Position numbers and translations under genes: made by a program
The notes under the pieces: model-generated
The model's input: only the letters and a program-made list of their open reading frames with translations
The model's database searches: none
Told to the model about the DNA's origin: nothing
Virus record (IMG/VR): IMGVR_UViG_3300023251_000021
Coordinates: 1 to 20,992 of that record
Origin: a virus
Length of the DNA stretch: 20,992 nt
Strand: one strand, 5' to 3'
Shown here: piece by piece, positions 5,769 to 19,460 of the stretch
Numbering within the stretch: the first letter of the stretch is position 1
How the letters are laid out: every line of letters starts with the position of its first letter

Positions 5769-7240
5769 TTGGGTTTCGTGAATACGATGTGATTCGGAGT
5801 ATCACGCGGAAATCTTTCTACGAATTCGTGAAAGAGTTTTGGCCTATAGTCGTACAGAACGAACCGCTGCAATCCAATTGGCATATTAAGTATTTGTGCT
5901 GGGATGCACAACGCGAAGTGGAACGAATATTAGCACGCAAAAAGAAACGTTACGATTATATCATATACAACATCCCTCCGGTGAGTCTCAAGTCTACGAT
6001 ATTTGCGATATTTTTGCATGGATGGATATGGGCTAAAAATCCATCTATGAATTTTATCGGTTGTTCTTATGAGCAAAATCTGATGGTGGGGCATGCACGC
6101 AAAGCTAGAGATTTGATTCGGAGTGAACAGTATAAAGCTTGTTTTCCAGAAGTTGTAATTCGCGGTGATATGAATGCTGTTGGCACGTATGGCACTAAAG
6201 CGGGGGGTGTGCGATTTAGTGCGGGCACACAAGGTAGCATCACGGGGAAGCATGGGGATTTGGTGGTGATAGATGATCCGCTGAATCCTAGGGCAGCGAG
6301 GTCTATTGCAGAAACGAAAGCTGTCAAAGAGTTTATCTTAGAAGCATTGCCATCCAGAAAGCGCGCAATTGATTTGGTACCCACTATACTGATAATGCAG
6401 CGGTTGTCTCAGGAAGATCCAACAGGATTTCTTTTGGATATGGCTGAACGTGCGGAAATTCGTGTGAAGCATGTTTGTTTACCTGCTACACTATCTCCAT
6501 TGGTAAAGCCTGCAAGCCTAAAAAAATACTATCACGATCAAGGCAAACTACTCAATCCCCAACGTTTAGGTTTGTTGGCACTTCAAGAGCTCAAAGCAAG
6601 TGGCGATTTTATGTACGCCGGTCAATATGATCAGTCACCCGTACCTATTGGTGGGGGTATGTTTCAGGCTGATAAATTGTTGATCAAAACACCTCCCGAT
6701 CCTACCAATCCAAGAAAATGGGTTAAACAAATTCGGTATTGGGATAAGGCTGCTACATATGATGATGGGTGTTGGACTGTAGGTTTGCGGCTGGGTAAAG
6801 ATTTGGATCAGAATTGGTGTATTTTACATGTGGATCGTTTTCGGTTAGAAAGTGCTGCGCGGGAAAATCGGATGAAGCAGCGTGCCGAGTTAGATGGTAA
6901 ACATGTGGTTGTTGGGCTTGAACAAGAACCGGGGGGCTCAGGCAAAGGGGACGCGCAGGCATCTACACGCAATCTAGCTGGGTGGCGTATTGTAGTTGAT
7001 CGGCCTACTGGTGGTAAAGAATTGCGTGCTGATCCTGTAGCGTCTCAAGTGAATGGGGGAAATGTTTATCTGGCACCTGAGGGGTATATTGATGGATTGC
7101 CAGAGGCATGGCATGCACCATTTATTGGGGAGATACAATATTTTCCATTCAGCAAATTCAAGGATCAGGTTGATGCGCTATCTGGAGCATTTGGGCAGAC
7201 GTGTCAGGGCACATTCCAAATAGGATTCAACAATCTTTAA
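5765..7240 (+). CDS. terL: Terminase large subunit (ATPase-nuclease)
   Basis: A 491-residue packaging motor. The N-terminal ATPase has a variant Walker A, PPVSLKST (71-78), and Walker B, LVVIDDP (166-172). The C-terminal RNase H-like nuclease has its acidic residues in place: RYWDKAA (D327), GLEQEPG (E386) and FKDQVDA (D467, D470). Length and order are standard for phage terminases that cut and translocate DNA into the prohead. It overlaps the small subunit by four bases and is followed after 15 bases by the portal gene, so the packaging genes form one unit. Confidence 0.95.
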   Translation: MIGFREYDVIRSITRKSFYEFVKEFWPIVVQNEPLQSNWHIKYLCWDAQREVERILARKKKRYDYIIYNIPPVSLKSTIFAIFLHGWIWAKNPSMNFIGCSYEQNLMVGHARKARDLIRSEQYKACFPEVVIRGDMNAVGTYGTKAGGVRFSAGTQGSITGKHGDLVVIDDPLNPRAARSIAETKAVKEFILEALPSRKRAIDLVPTILIMQRLSQEDPTGFLLDMAERAEIRVKHVCLPATLSPLVKPASLKKYYHDQGKLLNPQRLGLLALQELKASGDFMYAGQYDQSPVPIGGGMFQADKLLIKTPPDPTNPRKWVKQIRYWDKAATYDDGCWTVGLRLGKDLDQNWCILHVDRFRLESAARENRMKQRAELDGKHVVVGLEQEPGGSGKGDAQASTRNLAGWRIVVDRPTGGKELRADPVASQVNGGNVYLAPEGYIDGLPEAWHAPFIGEIQYFPFSKFKDQVDALSGAFGQTCQGTFQIGFNNL

Positions 7241-10002: not shown

Positions 10003-10896
10003 ATGAGTAAATCTTCTACAATAATCCGAGTTTTTCCGAGACGAACTAGTGCGACTCCCGTTGATTCGTTAACGGTCATAAATAGGGGTCCAGGATTGGG
10101 TTTGGGTTATGATTTTGATGCAGTGGATGAGGTTCATGTTTCGTGTACGTTTACATGGGATTTACCGCGCGCTCATTGGTTAGTAAGGCAATGGGGAAGA
10201 GTGGCTGATGTAAAATTAGGAGGCCCAGCATTAGATGCAAAGGGTGGTGAATTTGTTGTCGGTAGGTATCTCAAACCAGGATGTGTCATAACGTCGCGAG
10301 GCTGTCCTAATCATTGTTGGTTTTGTGCGGCGTGGAGACGAGAGGGGCGAAAAATAAGGGAATTGGAAATTAAGGATGGATGGAATGTGTTTGACAACAA
10401 TATTTTGGCGTGTTCTGAAAAACATGTTCGGAATGTGTTTAGGATGCTTCGACGGCAATCTGAACCGATAGAATTTACAGGGGGTTTAGAGGCTAAGATT
10501 TTGCAGCGGTGGCATGCGAAGTTGCTTGCATCTATTCGATTTAATTCTGTGTATTTTGCTTATGATACACCGGATGATTGGGAGCCTCTTGTTAATGCGT
10601 CTAAATTGCTACAATCTGTGTCTGGACTCAATTTTAATTCAGCTAAATCACTTTCAAGTTCAGACATAATTTCGTACAAGTTTCGTTGTTATGTTCTTAT
10701 CGGATATAAGAAAGATACGATTGAAAAAGCGGTGGATAGGTTGACGCGCACGTGTAAGTTAGGATTCGTGCCGTTCGCTATGTTGTTTAATAAAGATATA
10801 CAATCTGGGGAGTGGCGCGCAACTCAGCGGTTGTGGTCAGGAAACAAAAGGCAGGTATCAGCAAAATTCAAAAGTATATTAACAGGTGCACAATAA
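10003..10896 (+). CDS. Radical SAM domain protein, phage family
   Basis: A 297-residue protein with the radical SAM cluster signature C101-x3-C105-x2-C108 in TSRGCPNHCWFC, which would bind a 4Fe-4S cluster and cleave S-adenosylmethionine to a radical. Other family-like landmarks are FPRRTSATP near the N-terminus, DEVHVSCTFTWDLP, KLGGPALDAKGG, the GGLEAK segment (about 150-155) that fits the SAM-contacting strand, FAYDTPDD and RCYVLIGY. This set is seen in phage and prophage radical SAM proteins, but I know of no assigned substrate. The N-terminal KLGGPA part resembles the B12-type Rossmann region of larger members, without a visible cobalamin motif. It starts 59 bases after the head gene with GGGATGG upstream. 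Confidence 0.85.
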   Translation: MSKSSTIIRVFPRRTSATPVDSLTVINRGPGLGLGYDFDAVDEVHVSCTFTWDLPRAHWLVRQWGRVADVKLGGPALDAKGGEFVVGRYLKPGCVITSRGCPNHCWFCAAWRREGRKIRELEIKDGWNVFDNNILACSEKHVRNVFRMLRRQSEPIEFTGGLEAKILQRWHAKLLASIRFNSVYFAYDTPDDWEPLVNASKLLQSVSGLNFNSAKSLSSSDIISYKFRCYVLIGYKKDTIEKAVDRLTRTCKLGFVPFAMLFNKDIQSGEWRATQRLWSGNKRQVSAKFKSILTGAQ

Positions 10897-12650: not shown

Positions 12651-13262
12651 ATGGCATTGACGCGACGAGAATTCGGTAAGCTGGCGGCCGGTGCGGCGGC
12701 AGGGGCAGTGGTTCCTGTGGTGGTTCAGGCAGAAGCTTCGCCTGTGGCGACAGTTGCAAGAGGAGGCATTCTGGATATCGGGCCGTGTATGCATGTTTTC
12801 ATGAACCACGAATGTAAATACACAGGTTCTGCTGTGGAGTGTGACCATACGTTTGAGCGATGCAAGGAGTTGGGCAACAGCATCAACTTTGGTGGTCCAC
12901 CTATCTCGCCTTATAAGTCTGCCTATGGGCATTCGGGCTTATACCTCGACGGTCTGTGGTGTGGGCATATCGAATCGGCCGGAACGCCTGGTCGCAGTGT
13001 TTTAACGTGGCTGATATTTGGGGATGATCTACAACCGCAGCGGCTGCGTGTTTGTGTGCGGGGTACGCTTATGTCGCCGCTTTGTCGGACAGGAGTAAAT
13101 GATATCTATAAATGTGAAATTGTTAACGGGGGGTTTTCATGGAGTGCGACGGTCGAGATCCTGGAGACTATTTTTTGGCCGTCTGGGGCAGATGTGTTAC
13201 TGGCGGTTGATGGTGACGTGGTGATAACAGGCATGGTAGATAGTGGTGAAGGAGTACTATGA
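12651..13262 (+). CDS. Tat-signal exported protein 1
   Basis: A 203-residue protein with a twin-arginine signal peptide: LTRREFGKLAAGAAAGAVVP (3-22), fitting S/T-R-R-x-F-x-K, then a hydrophobic stretch and a likely cleavage after VQAEA. The mature part has eight cysteines spread along it (for example CMHVF, ECKYTG, VECDHTFERC, CVRG, LCRTG, YKCEI). Strand-rich segments end in GADVLLAVDGDVVITGMV. The Tat route would export it folded, perhaps with a cofactor. I do not recognise the mature domain. It overlaps the next gene, which has a nearly identical signal peptide. Tat substrates are unusual in phage genomes. Confidence 0.75.
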   Translation: MALTRREFGKLAAGAAAGAVVPVVVQAEASPVATVARGGILDIGPCMHVFMNHECKYTGSAVECDHTFERCKELGNSINFGGPPISPYKSAYGHSGLYLDGLWCGHIESAGTPGRSVLTWLIFGDDLQPQRLRVCVRGTLMSPLCRTGVNDIYKCEIVNGGFSWSATVEILETIFWPSGADVLLAVDGDVVITGMVDSGEGVL

Positions 13263-13453
13263 TGGCCTTGACACGACGGGAATTTGGGAAGTTGGTGGCC
13301 GCTGCGGTGGTTGGGGGTGTGATGCCTTTGGTTGGCGCAGGGGCTGCTGTGAAGGGTAAGACGATTGTGGGCCGCGATTTCCGTGTGTTCTTTCAAGGGC
13401 GGGAGGTCGGCCGGACGATACCCTTCAAGTTACACGGGGGAAGTGTTAAATAA
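13259..13453 (+). CDS. Tat-signal exported protein 2 (short paralogue)
   Basis: A 64-residue protein starting MMALTRREFGKL; the second Met (13262) gives the same first eleven residues as the upstream paralogue, so either start is possible. GGAG lies upstream and ATGA overlaps the previous stop. After the signal (MPLVGAGAA), only about 35 residues remain (TIVGRDFRVFFQGREVGRTIPFK), a beta-rich basic peptide. DNA differences between the two signals are mostly at third codon positions, so both copies seem to be kept by selection. The C-terminus GGSVK ends in repeat R2, like the gene at 12409, which suggests the gene end was exchanged or copied. Confidence 0.65.
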   Translation: MMALTRREFGKLVAAAVVGGVMPLVGAGAAVKGKTIVGRDFRVFFQGREVGRTIPFKLHGGSVK

Positions 13454-14330: not shown

Positions 14331-15305
14331 ATGTCAAAACGTTTGAAAGCCCCATTTCCGTATTTTGGTGGTAAAGCTACAGTCGCCTCTGTGGTTTGGA
14401 AGGCTCTGGGTAATGTGGGGCATTATCTGGAGCCTTTTTGTGGTTCGTGTGCTATCTTGTTAGCAAGGCCACGTTGGAATTCACAGCGCCATGTAGAAAC
14501 TGTCGTAGACAAGGACGGTCATATAGCTAATGTATGGCGCAGCTTGCAATCCAATCCGGATGAAGTAGCTAAGTGGTGTGATTGGCCGGTTAATCATGCA
14601 GATCTGATTGCACGTAAACGCAAGCTCAATCTTAATACGGAAACATTGTTGGAACGATTATGTGCCGATGATGAGTATTACGATTCCAAGTTGGCTGGGT
14701 ATTACATATGGGCTGCTTCCTGTTGGATTGGGCATGGTTTGATTTGTCCGGGTCAGAGACCTCATTTGGTTAAAAGTGCGGGCGTGCATGCTAAGGGTCA
14801 GAGACTACATTTGGCTTCTACTGGTAAGGGCGTACAAGAACCTTACAACACGCCAATTTATGAATGGTTTCGGAAATTGAGTGAACGTTTGCGAAACGTC
14901 CGAGTGGTTTGTGGTGATTGGTCGCGTGTTTGTGGTGGCGATTGGCAACATCAAGTATCGCCTGCATCACCTGTAGGTATTTTTTTCGATCCACCTTACA
15001 GTGATGTGGCTGATCGTCGTGCAGGGATTTATGCTGTGGACAGTCTCCAAGTGGCCCATGATGTAAGGCATTGGTGTTTGAAGCGAGGTAGTCGTAAGAA
15101 ATACCGTATTATTTTGGCTGGTTATTACGATGAACATAAGGAGTTGTTGCAACATGGATGGTGTGTGCATCGTTGGAAGGCTGGTGGTGGTTATGGGAAT
15201 ATTTCAGGCAAAAAGCAAACACGAGGCAAAACCAATAGGCATAAAGAGTGTTTGTTTTTAAGCCCCAACTGCCTGCGTTCCAAAGGCTTGTTAGATTTGC
15301 ATTAA
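14331..15305 (+). CDS. DNA adenine methylase, D12 class (Dam-like)
   Basis: A 324-residue N6-adenine DNA methyltransferase. It has the class landmarks: PFPYFGGK (8-15), the SAM-binding EPFCGSCAILL (34-44), a DKDGHIANVWR segment (60-70), and the catalytic DPPY (220-223) in FFDPPYSD. The end RHKECLFLSPNC resembles the tail of phage relatives. It would methylate adenine in a short site in phage or host DNA, most likely to evade host restriction. No matching endonuclease is nearby, so it looks like an orphan methylase. It starts 15 bases after the lipoprotein with AAGGT upstream and precedes the structured segment at 15370. Confidence 0.9.
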   Translation: MSKRLKAPFPYFGGKATVASVVWKALGNVGHYLEPFCGSCAILLARPRWNSQRHVETVVDKDGHIANVWRSLQSNPDEVAKWCDWPVNHADLIARKRKLNLNTETLLERLCADDEYYDSKLAGYYIWAASCWIGHGLICPGQRPHLVKSAGVHAKGQRLHLASTGKGVQEPYNTPIYEWFRKLSERLRNVRVVCGDWSRVCGGDWQHQVSPASPVGIFFDPPYSDVADRRAGIYAVDSLQVAHDVRHWCLKRGSRKKYRIILAGYYDEHKELLQHGWCVHRWKAGGGYGNISGKKQTRGKTNRHKECLFLSPNCLRSKGLLDLH

Positions 15306-15369
15306 CGAGCAAGCGATAATATAGGTAGATACAAGGATGTAGGTTTTGACGATCAAGGAGGCAAAAGTT

Positions 15370-15679
15370 AATAGAGGTGCTGGCGTCAATAATTATTTTG
15401 CTAAAATGGATTGGGTCGTTAATTGTTGTCTTACAGGCCAGCACCTCTATTTGACAAGTGAATATTTCAGTCTATGCGACTGGTTGCCGCACCTTGCTAA
15501 AACCGGATTTCGATATATTGCTTTGGTTGGCTTGAAACACCCACTATGTGATGTTATCGGTTCGCGTACAGAAACTAGGCAACCAGTCTCATTTTTGACT
15601 CCTCCGAGGAACTGGGAGGCTTATAAACCTCCGCACACCTGTCTCCAGATAAGTTCTCCCGGTTTCCTTTTACGAAAGG
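15370..15679 (+). ncRNA. Candidate structured RNA or long leader
   Basis: This gap of about 380 bases (15306-15687) contains several strong pairings. AATAGAGGTGCTGGC (15370-15384) is the perfect complement of 15437-15451, with CAATAATTA/TAATTGTTG (one G-U) and TTTTGCTAAAA inside. GACTGGTTGCC (15478-15488) pairs perfectly with 15578-15588. GGAGG/CCTCC (15615-15619, 15628-15632) sits inside a GGAACT/AGTTCT pairing. CCTTT-TACG-AAAGG (15666-15679) is a UACG tetraloop hairpin that covers the next ribosome site. One reading frame is open from TTG 15346 through the region into the next gene, so an N-terminal protein extension is the main alternative. SD-like AAGGAGG at 15355-15361 has no nearby AUG. 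Confidence 0.55.
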
Positions 15680-15687
15680 CGGTACGT

Positions 15688-16272
15688 ATGAAATATCGAT
15701 TAATTGGATTCGTGTTTGTTTTCGTGGTTGGTGTATTGCCTGGGATTTTAGCGGTAACAACACCAATCAAGGCAAATGAAGCTGATGAGGATACGACGTG
15801 TGTGCAGGTGTTTTTGGAGATACCCTCAAACATCGATCCAAACCTAGTGCCCATTGATCCTGAATCTGGTCGGCGTTTGTATCTGGGTGTATGTGATGCT
15901 TATGCTGGACAGGATTTGGTGATTCGGGGACGTGCTTGCGACCCAAACACACAACAAACAGTTACATTGTATTATTACGATAGTGGTGAATCAATCCCGT
16001 TGAATGAGCATGGTGACTATACGATTGTATATCAGTGTGCGACAACGGGAGTATTCCCGCTAACGTTGATAGTTACAGACGACCATCCCGATCAGAAATC
16101 ATGTGTGGGCACTTGGATTGTACGGGTGCATACAGAGAACAGGCCCCCAGTACTTACGTTGCAAACATCTACAGCGCGGATGCGCCTGAAGCAAAAAGCG
16201 TTGATGGAGTTGGCTAAGCGTGAAGGTACGCATGTGTTGAGACGTCGAGGATACGTTCTCGTTTCCCAATAA
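15688..16272 (+). CDS. Secreted protein with PKD/Ig-like domain
   Basis: ATG 15688 gives 194 residues starting with a Sec signal peptide (MKYRLIGFVFVFVVGVLPGILA, likely cut near KAN-E at about 30). The mature part is beta-rich: LVIRGRACDPNTQQTVTLYYYDSG, GDYTIVYQCATTGVFPLTLIVTDDHPD, then GTWIVRV and NRPPVLTL. The G-x-Y ... PLTLIVTDD rhythm resembles PKD or cadherin-like repeats of surface proteins. The tail is basic and helical. The ribosome site AAAGGCGG is part of a hairpin. A longer product from TTG 15346 is possible but would bury the signal peptide, so the shorter form is preferred. A terminator follows. Confidence 0.7.
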   Translation: MKYRLIGFVFVFVVGVLPGILAVTTPIKANEADEDTTCVQVFLEIPSNIDPNLVPIDPESGRRLYLGVCDAYAGQDLVIRGRACDPNTQQTVTLYYYDSGESIPLNEHGDYTIVYQCATTGVFPLTLIVTDDHPDQKSCVGTWIVRVHTENRPPVLTLQTSTARMRLKQKALMELAKREGTHVLRRRGYVLVSQ

Positions 16273-16292
16273 ATCATCACCCTCCTGCTTGG

Positions 16293-16351
16293 GGGAGCGG
16301 CAGACCAGCTTTGATTTATGTCTATTGAAGATACGATGCCGCTCCCTTTTT
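16293..16351 (+). terminator. Rho-independent terminator with long loop
   Basis: GGGAGCGGCA (16293-16302) is the perfect complement of TGCCGCTCCC (16337-16346), followed directly by TTTTT. The 34-base loop is long, so the inner part may fold further. It lies right after the exported protein gene. Confidence 0.75.
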
Positions 16352-16378
16352 GGTTTAATTTCGATCAAGGAGAATAAA

Positions 16379-17917: not shown

Positions 17918-17985
17918 AAAGATGACAGCGATACTATATGTAGTGATTGAAAAGGCAATCCATATTAAAAAGTAAGAAGCGCATA

Positions 17986-18441
17986 ATGAAACTGATCAAG
18001 CTCACTCAAGGCCAATACACACTTGTCGATGACAAAGTCTACGCGAAACTTTCTAGATACAAATGGCGTGCCCAGTGGGACAAGCACACGCAGAGCTTCT
18101 ATGCCGTACGAAACATTCGCCTGCCCAATGGCAAATGGACTACGGAACGCATGCACCGACGCATCTTATGCCTGAAACATGGTGACAAACGACAGGGGGA
18201 TCATATCAATCACGATACACTGGACAATCGCAGGTTTAATATCCGAATCGTCACGGCAAGTGAGAACCGGCAGAACAATCGGGGCAAAGGATACTACAAA
18301 GCGGGAAGGAAATTTAGAGTCAAGATCAAAGTGGATAATGTAGAAATATATCTTGGAATGTTTAACACGCCAAGCGAAGCCCGTGCGGCATATTTGGCGG
18401 CAAAACGAATCTATCATCCATCGGCACCTATTCTAGGATAG
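17986..18441 (+). CDS. HNH endonuclease with AP2-like DNA-binding domain
   Basis: A 151-residue free-standing homing-type endonuclease. The N-terminus KLIKLTQGQYTLVDD and WRAQWDKHTQSFYAVRN is the usual pre-HNH strand region. MHRRIL (H57) with GDHINHDTLDNRRFNIR (71-87) gives the HNH core, and TASENRQNN follows. An AP2-like domain, GYYKAGRKFRVKIKVDNVEIYLGMFNTPSEARAAYLAAKR, forms the C-terminus. Such genes insert into phage genomes and cut at cognate sites. I start at ATG 17986, matching relatives that begin MK-I-x-L-T; an ATG at 17947 adds a basic stretch. Codons end in C more often than in the neighbours, fitting recent acquisition. Confidence 0.88.
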   Translation: MKLIKLTQGQYTLVDDKVYAKLSRYKWRAQWDKHTQSFYAVRNIRLPNGKWTTERMHRRILCLKHGDKRQGDHINHDTLDNRRFNIRIVTASENRQNNRGKGYYKAGRKFRVKIKVDNVEIYLGMFNTPSEARAAYLAAKRIYHPSAPILG

Positions 18442-18477
18442 TAACACCAACAAGTTATGCGGGAGAACAAAAAGCAG

Positions 18478-18669
18478 ATGTTTCGGTGGACATACATAAT
18501 GTTTGTGGTTGGGGATCGACGATGGTGTGAACGCATTTTCGTCATTTCCCTTCTTGCCGCATCTGTATCTCCGATAGCAATCATAGTTCAAACAATGGGG
18601 GAAGTCCGCTGTCGCACAATAAGCGGTATCGTGCGACAATCGCGCCAGAAGCCCAGCACGTATGGTTAG
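18478..18669 (+). CDS. Possible small membrane protein
   Basis: In the 356-base gap 18442-18797, the only credible frame starts at 18457 or 18478 (the latter with GGGAG upstream) and gives 63 residues with one hydrophobic helix, IFVISLLAASVSPIAIIVQTM. The tail is basic. The DNA also holds the inverted repeat GTCGCAC/GTGCGAC (18611-18617, 18631-18637), which may be structural. Coding is uncertain; the rest of the gap up to 18731 is AT-rich with no clear feature. Confidence 0.35.
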   Translation: MFRWTYIMFVVGDRRWCERIFVISLLAASVSPIAIIVQTMGEVRCRTISGIVRQSRQKPSTYG

Positions 18670-18731: not shown

Positions 18732-18780
18732 AAAGGGTTGGGGGATCATGTAGGCTCACGACCCCAACCCTTTGCTTTTT
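18732..18780 (+). terminator. Strong rho-independent terminator
   Basis: AAAGGGTTGGGG (18732-18743) is the perfect complement of CCCCAACCCTTT (18762-18773), a 12-base-pair stem with an 18-base loop, followed by GCTTTTT. It stops rightward transcription after the HNH region. The NUDIX gene starts 18 bases later, which leaves no room for a promoter between, so that gene needs read-through or a promoter inside the stem. Confidence 0.85.
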
Positions 18781-18797: not shown

Positions 18798-19460
18798 ATG
18801 AAGTCCAATGATGAACAAGTGCTGGTGGTAGATCGTAGAGCTTTGAGTCAGCATATTGCACATCCCTCTGGGTTATTAGTGGGCTGCAAAGGTGTTCGTA
18901 ATTTATTAAAGCCCCTAGCATCCGATTTTTGCAACATACGGTTTATGCTGCGGTCTGAAGCCGAGCAGGATTCCAAAGTTAAACAAATCATTCCGTATGT
19001 TATCATTACGGACGGCAGTAGGTTTTTGAGTTATACTCGGGGTAAGCAGTGTGATGATAGGTTGAAAGCAAAGCTTAGCATAGGCTTTGGGGGACATATA
19101 AATCCAACAGATCAACCACAATTTTTGGCGGATTTATTGAATGCCTGCGTGTATCGTGAATTGCATGAAGAACTTGTATTGCCAAGCAAGTACACGCAGA
19201 ATATTGTGGGTGTAATCAATGACGATTCAAATGAGGTGGGCGAACGTCATTTCGGTTTGGTGTACTGGCTGTGCGTAAGTGATTTGAATGACATGCAGAT
19301 AAATTCTGCTGCGGAGATTTGCAACTTATCTATTCTTAATACGGAGTCCGACGCGCCGCTTGGCCGGGCAGAGTTTTGGAGTCAATTGTGTTGGGTGCAT
19401 AGGATATCGCTGGCGGTGGAAAATGAAGTGGGCACATTTCGTTGTGAAATCAGACCATGA
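18798..19460 (+). CDS. NUDIX-family phosphohydrolase-like protein
   Basis: A 220-residue protein. The segment FLSYTRGKQCDDRLKAKLSIGFGGHIN (about 76-102), then RELHEEL (120-126), is a NUDIX-box pattern: GG near 98-99 and R120-E121-x-x-E124-E125 for metal binding. The SIGFGGHIN form matches the 'predicted NUDIX phosphoesterase' group (COG4112-like). NUDIX enzymes hydrolyse nucleoside diphosphates linked to another group, so a role in nucleotide, NAD or cap removal is possible; the substrate is unknown. GGAGG lies before ATG 18798. It overlaps the next gene by ATGA. Confidence 0.8.
   Translation: MKSNDEQVLVVDRRALSQHIAHPSGLLVGCKGVRNLLKPLASDFCNIRFMLRSEAEQDSKVKQIIPYVIITDGSRFLSYTRGKQCDDRLKAKLSIGFGGHINPTDQPQFLADLLNACVYRELHEELVLPSKYTQNIVGVINDDSNEVGERHFGLVYWLCVSDLNDMQINSAAEICNLSILNTESDAPLGRAEFWSQLCWVHRISLAVENEVGTFRCEIRP

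Follow-up and report, generated by a model that had tools for sequence, protein, structure and literature searches.

Phages are said to carry riboswitches only rarely (PMC9004378), and the phage-borne leaders and motifs on record include a glutamine riboswitch in Melnitz-like phages and the manA and wcaG motifs in cyanophages (PMC9004378, PMC2864571). GOLLD RNAs are reported to be often longer than 800 nt, and ROOL and GOLLD RNAs often lie near tRNA islands (PMC12286853). Here, we analyzed a gap between two genes at positions 15306-15687 of the 20,992-nt IMG/VR record IMGVR_UViG_3300023251_000021, the whole of which is called the window below. A preliminary description of this DNA had proposed an undescribed structured RNA or leader in the gap, and that proposal is now supported by covariation in three hairpins (P2, P3, and P4), the fold energy, the lack of a coding signal, and the lack of an Rfam match. 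We hold with high confidence that the RNA structure is real and under selection.

The plus strand of the window carries the terminase, portal, and Mu-F-like genes. Immediately upstream of the gap is a D12-like DNA methylase gene (14331-15305), which scores just under the Pfam cut-off and also matches a PHROG DNA methyltransferase. Downstream is the gene of a secreted-type protein, which returned no family match and no relative in the genome_contigs or phages collections, and the structure prediction of this protein was unusable (pLDDT 37.9). Among other genes of the window, a protein with a radical-SAM-like match (10003-10896; Pfam score under the cut-off) follows the phage structural genes, and two neighboring proteins (12651-13262 and 13259-13453) have, by eye, nearly the same twin-arginine-like start, MALTRREFGKL, as if an export signal had been duplicated.

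Two contigs, L002 and L003, match the window at 385 of 385 bases across the gap and thus add nothing, leaving two distinct sequences for comparison. The second is the one divergent relative, L005 (IMGVR_UViG_3300033145_001721; also L022, L073, and L084), in which methylase, gap, and secreted gene follow each other in the same order as in the window. DNA identity between the window and L005 is 83.5% in the methylase gene, 84.0% in the secreted gene (83% at the amino acid level), and 62.6% in the gap. The leader was present in all three contigs found with the secreted gene. Among the 15 other methylase relatives (L004 and L006-L019), the secreted gene was found in none (tblastn, E ≤ 1e-3), and matches to the gap were limited to 17–27 nt with E ≥ 0.06. 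A DNA similarity search of the phages collection with 14331-16272 gave 0 matches. The features of the locus, in window coordinates, are as follows.

15313-15331, plus strand: promoter-like block GCGATAATATAGGTAGATA, the same in L005, with a -10-like GATAAT
15356-15603, plus strand: P1, a tentative closing helix (15356-15360/15599-15603 and 15362-15366/15593-15597)
15370-15451, plus strand: P2 hairpin with a perfect 15-bp stem (15370-15384/15437-15451)
15452-15477, plus strand: TGACAAGTGAATATTTCAGTCTATGC, the conserved linker joining P2 to P3, in which TGAA-TAT-TTCA may form a mini-hairpin
15475-15591, plus strand: P3 hairpin, stem 15478-15488/15578-15588, extended by 15475-15476/15590-15591 beyond a C.U mismatch
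15606-15669, plus strand: P4 hairpin, core 15612-15624/15649-15662 and base 15606-15611/15664-15669, with TTTT at the 3' end
15675-15679 and 15688-15690, plus strand: Shine-Dalgarno AAAGG and ATG at the start of the secreted protein, in a conserved context
15688-16272, plus strand: secreted-type protein gene (194 aa), with an N-terminal hydrophobic signal-like stretch judged by eye
16288-16352, plus strand: terminator-like hairpin, core 16293-16301/16338-16346, with TTTTT; the probable end of the unit

Both long inverted repeats of the preliminary description, 15 bp in P2 and 11 bp in P3, are perfect and lie exactly where it had placed them, with the 11-bp repeat beginning 26 nt past the end of the 15-bp repeat. 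No other perfect inverted repeat in the window is as long as the 15-bp one at loops of up to 120 nt, and among 200 dinucleotide-shuffled versions of the window, none had a repeat of more than 13 bp. When the gap was shuffled, one repeat of at least 11 bp arose in 12 of 2000 cases and two such repeats in 0 of 2000, bearing out the view that chance is an unlikely source. The smaller elements fared less evenly. The inner 9-bp stem is present at 15387-15395/15420-15428 and belongs to the predicted fold of the window, but it is broken in L005, where four of seven gap-free pairs are lost. The UACG-loop hairpin (CCTTT-TACG-AAAGG, 15666-15679) exists as sequence but falls outside the best fold of both the window and L005, and its L005 counterpart, CCTTT-TATG-AAAGG, has no compensating change. 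Likewise, the letters of the GGAGG..CCTCC hairpin are there (15615-15632), but the CCTCC arm is missing in L005; the conserved alternative pairs GGGAGG (15614-15619) with TCTCCC (15655-15660) and is part of P4.

The fold energy of the gap was under that of nearly all shuffles in both genomes, contrary to one of the outcomes that had been named as evidence against the proposal. For 15306-15690, the z score was -2.6 on the plus strand and -2.8 on the minus strand, with one of 100 shuffles as low in either case; because the two strands score alike, energy alone gives no direction. The shorter stretch 15315-15600 reached z = -3.1 (2 of 200 shuffles as low), and the corresponding L005 region (L005 6114-6477) reached z = -4.5 (0 of 100).

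In the comparison with L005, the 12 column-aligned pairs of P2 (15373-15384/15437-15448, local alignment) contain four two-sided changes and one one-sided change, and none is broken. P3 has one two-sided and one one-sided change among 14 pairs, and its single mismatch, C.U in the window, is an A-U pair in L005. P4 is a third hairpin, absent from the list of the preliminary description, with an MFE of -22.7 kcal/mol. In the aligned register, its 17 pairs (15608-15624/15649-15666) contain two two-sided and six one-sided changes with none broken; in the best-fold register of the window, the 13 core pairs contain one two-sided and four one-sided changes, again with none broken. The six base pairs at 15606-15611/15664-15669 fail in L005, where the register of the base is shifted by one. 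The hairpin 3' of the secreted gene (16288-16352) has one two-sided and one one-sided change among nine pairs. Taken together, the 52 pairs of P2, P3, P4 (aligned register), and this terminator-like hairpin comprise 34 unchanged pairs, eight with two-sided changes, nine with one-sided changes, and one broken pair.

Several controls bear on these counts. Sliding the partners in P2 and P3 by 1–3 columns lowered the share of paired cells from 98% to 27–46%, and in a column-pair control with the 3' letters redealt between the two sequences, the observed values were reached in 15 of 500 trials. The best null stem in 1000 column permutations of the leader alignments scored 7.9, compared to 11.65 for P2, 10.65 for P3, and 10.25 for P4; judged by two-sided changes alone, six of 1000 permutations held a stem of at least six pairs with four such changes. 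A random-substitution null gave 0.001 for P2, 0.002 for P3, 0.001 for outer P4, 0.24 for inner P4, and 0.03 for the terminator-like hairpin, values to be read in the knowledge that all these nulls are simple and that the helices were picked because they are paired in both sequences, which favors G.U over A.C. Of the 285 conserved stems of at least 8 bp contained in five aligned window stretches, only three carry two two-sided changes: P4, which is the longest, and two others at the gap edge (15293-15346) and at 18610-18638. The whole-genome alignment placed the 5' arm of P2 wrongly, and P2 is therefore missing from this list of 285 stems. The stem at 18610-18638 (TGTCGCAC/GTGCGACA), with its two two-sided changes against L005, lies inside a small ORF (18457-18669) and is possibly a further RNA structure or a product of chance.

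The conserved part of the fold is smaller than the fold predicted for the window. When the best-fold helices of the window were transferred to L005 column by column, P2, P3, and the core of P4 held and the inner 9-bp stem of P2 did not, so that the covariation check proposed in the preliminary description, made here on one divergent homologue, favors the outer stems and goes against the inner one. P1 was not conserved at the aligned columns, although its pair probabilities are 0.49–0.85 in the window and 0.66–0.95 in L005, and the closing helix predicted for L005 lies elsewhere (L005 6126-6135/6371-6380). The inner helices of P3 (15504-15521/15548-15564) were not conserved against L005 either. 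All three of these (P1 and the inner parts of P2 and P3) were consequently rejected as conserved parts, since the aligned columns do not hold their pairing, with the proviso that the alignment is least sure at the failing helices. As only P2, P3, and the P4 core hold, the conserved element consists of three outer stems and the linker and not of the whole fold.

The sequences around the stems are also partly conserved. Identity to L005 is 18 of 20 positions over 15320-15339, next to and within the promoter-like block, and 16 of 20 over 15440-15459 and 17 of 20 over 15460-15479 around the linker. The GATAAT block is absent from the output of a consensus promoter scan, so we infer its promoter role. 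In the window and L005 alike, P4 immediately precedes the start of the secreted gene, and it ends 5–8 nt from the Shine-Dalgarno sequence. The promoter and terminator scan, which covered loops of 3–8 nt only, listed neither P4 nor the hairpin 3' of the secreted gene, and with a U-run of only four, P4 would be a weak terminator at most. The predicted partners of the Shine-Dalgarno sequence in the full leader are CTTTT next to P1' in L005 and coding-region bases in the window. Because these partners differ between the genomes, there is no support for a translational switch conserved in both, and conserved sequestering of the ribosome site was rejected as a candidate. Another terminator-like hairpin stands just ahead of a ribosome site at 18732-18773 of the window; its arms, AAAGGGTTGGGG and CCCCAACCCTTT, pair perfectly over 12 bp, it has a T-rich tail, and a gene with a weak NUDIX match begins 24 nt further on, at 18798.

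No RNA family in Rfam accounts for the element. The Rfam check gave 0 matches in the window at the gathering cut-offs (4227 families), consistent with the earlier failure to recognize a known class, and group I and II intron models were likewise without a match in the window at these cut-offs. Under permissive settings, the best hit in the window gap was g2 (25.1 bits against a cut-off of 70) and the best in the L005 gap was rliE (21.7 bits against a cut-off of 90). The observation that no reverse transcriptase is nearby was upheld, with PF00078 in 0 of four records (the window and three related records, possibly fragments) at E ≤ 1e-3. Neither the integrase family PF00589 nor PF07282, which served as the test for a TnpB/IscB-type nuclease, was found in any of the four records at the same threshold, and an HNH_3 protein (17947-18441) lies 2.3 kb from the gap. 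A retron, a TnpB guide RNA, and an integrase site were thus rejected, as none of their partner genes was found in the four records. A MITE-like mobile repeat was rejected as well: the 15-mer occurs in 50 viral_contigs stretches, twice per stretch only in two contigs identical to the window, and the stem at the same place in L005 has different letters.

Searches for further homologues were made by pattern and by covariance model. In viral_contigs, the strict linker pattern matched two stretches, the relaxed pattern 60, its 3' half 18, and the -10-like block pattern eight; in genome_contigs, the linker pattern matched 87 stretches (88 matches scored). Hairpin tests on 51 distinct contexts, on the 88 matches, and on the 3'-half stretches found two long stems only in the window group and L005. 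Most of the top combined scores in genome_contigs were due to a single strong downstream hairpin in gut Oscillospiraceae/Ruminococcus contigs that have no P2-like stem. The covariance model R1, run over 97, 80, 100, and 26 sources, gave only weak matches beyond the window group and L005; these source sets omit L001, L002, L020-L022, L036, L056, and L073 (pieces of the window or of searched contigs) and L215-L218. Over 30 whole records, R1 gave one weak match (E 0.11). The strongest outside match (21.8 bits, E 0.0095) is in L309 and L321, which had been picked for a half-linker and have no long stem 5' of it (5.0) and a short one 3' of it (7.3); it is treated as chance for this reason. No convincing third homologue was found by the pattern scans or R1 in the collections searched, and the element appears to be either narrow in distribution or changing too fast for such searches.

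The pattern scans also brought up two elements of other kinds. In six gut Oscillospiraceae/Ruminococcus sequences (L296, L251, L254, L256, L274, and L283), CACCTTGACAACTGAATATTTC precedes a conserved 14–17-bp hairpin containing CCGGTATTATGAT; this is a repeated element and, by the hairpin test, unrelated to the phage leader. In L269, a Gastranaerophilales contig, a linker-like 18-mer occurs at 6524-6541 and again at 6635-6652, 111 nt apart, suggesting a tandem repeat.

We consider it somewhat better than an even chance that the gap serves as a structured 5' untranslated leader in a one-gene transcription unit and acts in cis on the secreted gene. Transcription would start just past the conserved GATAAT block and run through P2, the linker, and P3, which P1 may close, and then through the terminator-like P4, which would end 5–8 nt before the Shine-Dalgarno sequence; the transcript would stop at the terminator-like hairpin 3' of the secreted gene. 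The fold signal, the pairing kept by three stems in two genomes, the lack of coding, and the synteny with the secreted gene are demonstrated; the promoter, both transcript ends, the action in cis, and any sensed signal or regulation are inferred. The leader would most likely set how much transcript is finished, kept, or translated, with P4 as an attenuator or stabilizer and P2, the linker, and P3 as a sensing or steadying part. A more specific form of this mechanism is a riboregulator in which P2, the linker, and P3 sense a ligand, a host protein, or a phage RNA and P4 decides whether the mRNA is completed or translated, a version that we regard as doubtful.

Two alternatives would do without a structured RNA. 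One is that the secreted gene extends N-terminally and codes from TTG 15346, since the window has an open frame of 114 codons ending at ATG 15688, L005 shares an open frame over the 77 codons preceding the ATG, and one 25-aa tblastn stretch matches at 56% (E 3e-6). However, L005 has a stop inside the best-matching 25 codons, and mismatches in the gap are flat across codon positions (41/117, 44/114, and 44/114), unlike those of the secreted gene (18/15/60) and the methylase gene (40/19/99), which are in excess at third positions; the gap indels, which include lengths of 1, 2, and 25 nt, also break the frame. The clear protein-level conservation that had been named as evidence against an RNA was thus not found, and we give the coding reading hardly any credence. 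The other is a DNA-level element, such as an origin, a packaging or recombination site, or a transposon-end hairpin, with the repeats serving as DNA hairpins or protein-binding palindromes. Cruciforms or template switching from arm to arm could also keep repeats with compensating changes. All nine one-sided changes in P2, P3, P4, and the terminator-like hairpin are to or from G.U on the plus strand; because pairing in both sequences was one ground on which the stems had been chosen, the search was redone under minus-strand rules, in which A.C replaces G.U. P2 then fell from 12 to 10 pairs and P3 from 11 to nine, survivals that fit a DNA element, but the P4 region gave no stem of at least seven pairs, compared to 12 under plus-strand rules. 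As P2 and P3 barely separate the strands and P4 does, it is mainly P4 that speaks for a rightward RNA, a reading that is supported, though less firmly than the structure itself. The sign of the GC skew does not change across the gap (2-kb windows), by which a DNA origin was rejected, the end of the large terminase gene lies 8 kb upstream, and none of the four records, possibly fragments, matches PF00589, PF00078, or PF07282 at E ≤ 1e-3. A DNA-level role is accordingly very improbable in our estimate.

The remaining alternatives keep the RNA and assign it another task. A free-standing, trans-acting small RNA of ~250–340 nt, with its own promoter at 15313-15331 and P4 as its terminator, would leave the secreted gene to be expressed by leak-through. 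The conserved promoter-like block, the compact fold of P2 and P3, and a covarying hairpin with UUUU all suit such an RNA, and phage non-coding RNAs of unknown role do exist, ROOL and GOLLD being examples (PMC12286853). But P4 lies 5–8 nt from the next ribosome site, which leaves no room for another promoter, its U-run is only four, and the leader was found only alongside the secreted gene; we rate this reading as unlikely, if still the foremost of the competitors to a leader acting in cis. Less likely again is a role confined to processing or stability, with P2 as a place of RNase III-type cleavage or as a stabilizer at the 5' end of the mRNA and no sensing at all. RNase III sites occur in T7-like phages, P2 is a long and nearly perfect duplex in which pairing matters above letters, and the window has the other hairpin before a ribosome site at 18732-18773. 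A simple cut site, however, would need neither a conserved linker nor a second and third covarying hairpin.

The comparison of two genomes provides a testable fold for P2, P3, and P4. If the leader senses, the phage would be controlling a secreted, uncharacterized protein through RNA, and if the riboregulator version is true, the element would be a phage switch through which the host surface or the environment is modified.

Compared with described systems, the locus shares with phage riboswitch-type leaders a structured RNA at a phage gene, here in the form of several hairpins upstream of the gene (PMC9004378, PMC2864571), and differs from them in having no Rfam match, another gene context, no conserved switching pair, and two distinct sequences. 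No mutually exclusive conserved structures of the riboswitch type were found in the Shine-Dalgarno pairing of the window and L005. Since the Rfam test failed and a conserved switching platform was sought and not found, the element is not filed as a riboswitch, and its resemblance to the phage riboswitch group is at most one of analogy. With ROOL and GOLLD it has in common that it is a phage-borne structured RNA with no function assigned, as those RNAs are presented in PMC12286853, whereas it spans no more than about 340 nt, has no tRNA in the window, and matches no Rfam family. The unit as a whole recalls phage moron units as outlined in PMC7067206, with one gene, a terminator-like end, a possible promoter, a secreted-type product, and few relatives, but here no integrase match occurs in the four records and the promoter-like block is a presumed promoter. 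P4 resembles intrinsic terminators and attenuators in being a hairpin whose 3' end carries UUUU, and departs from them in its short U-run, its position directly before a ribosome site, and its absence from the terminator scan.
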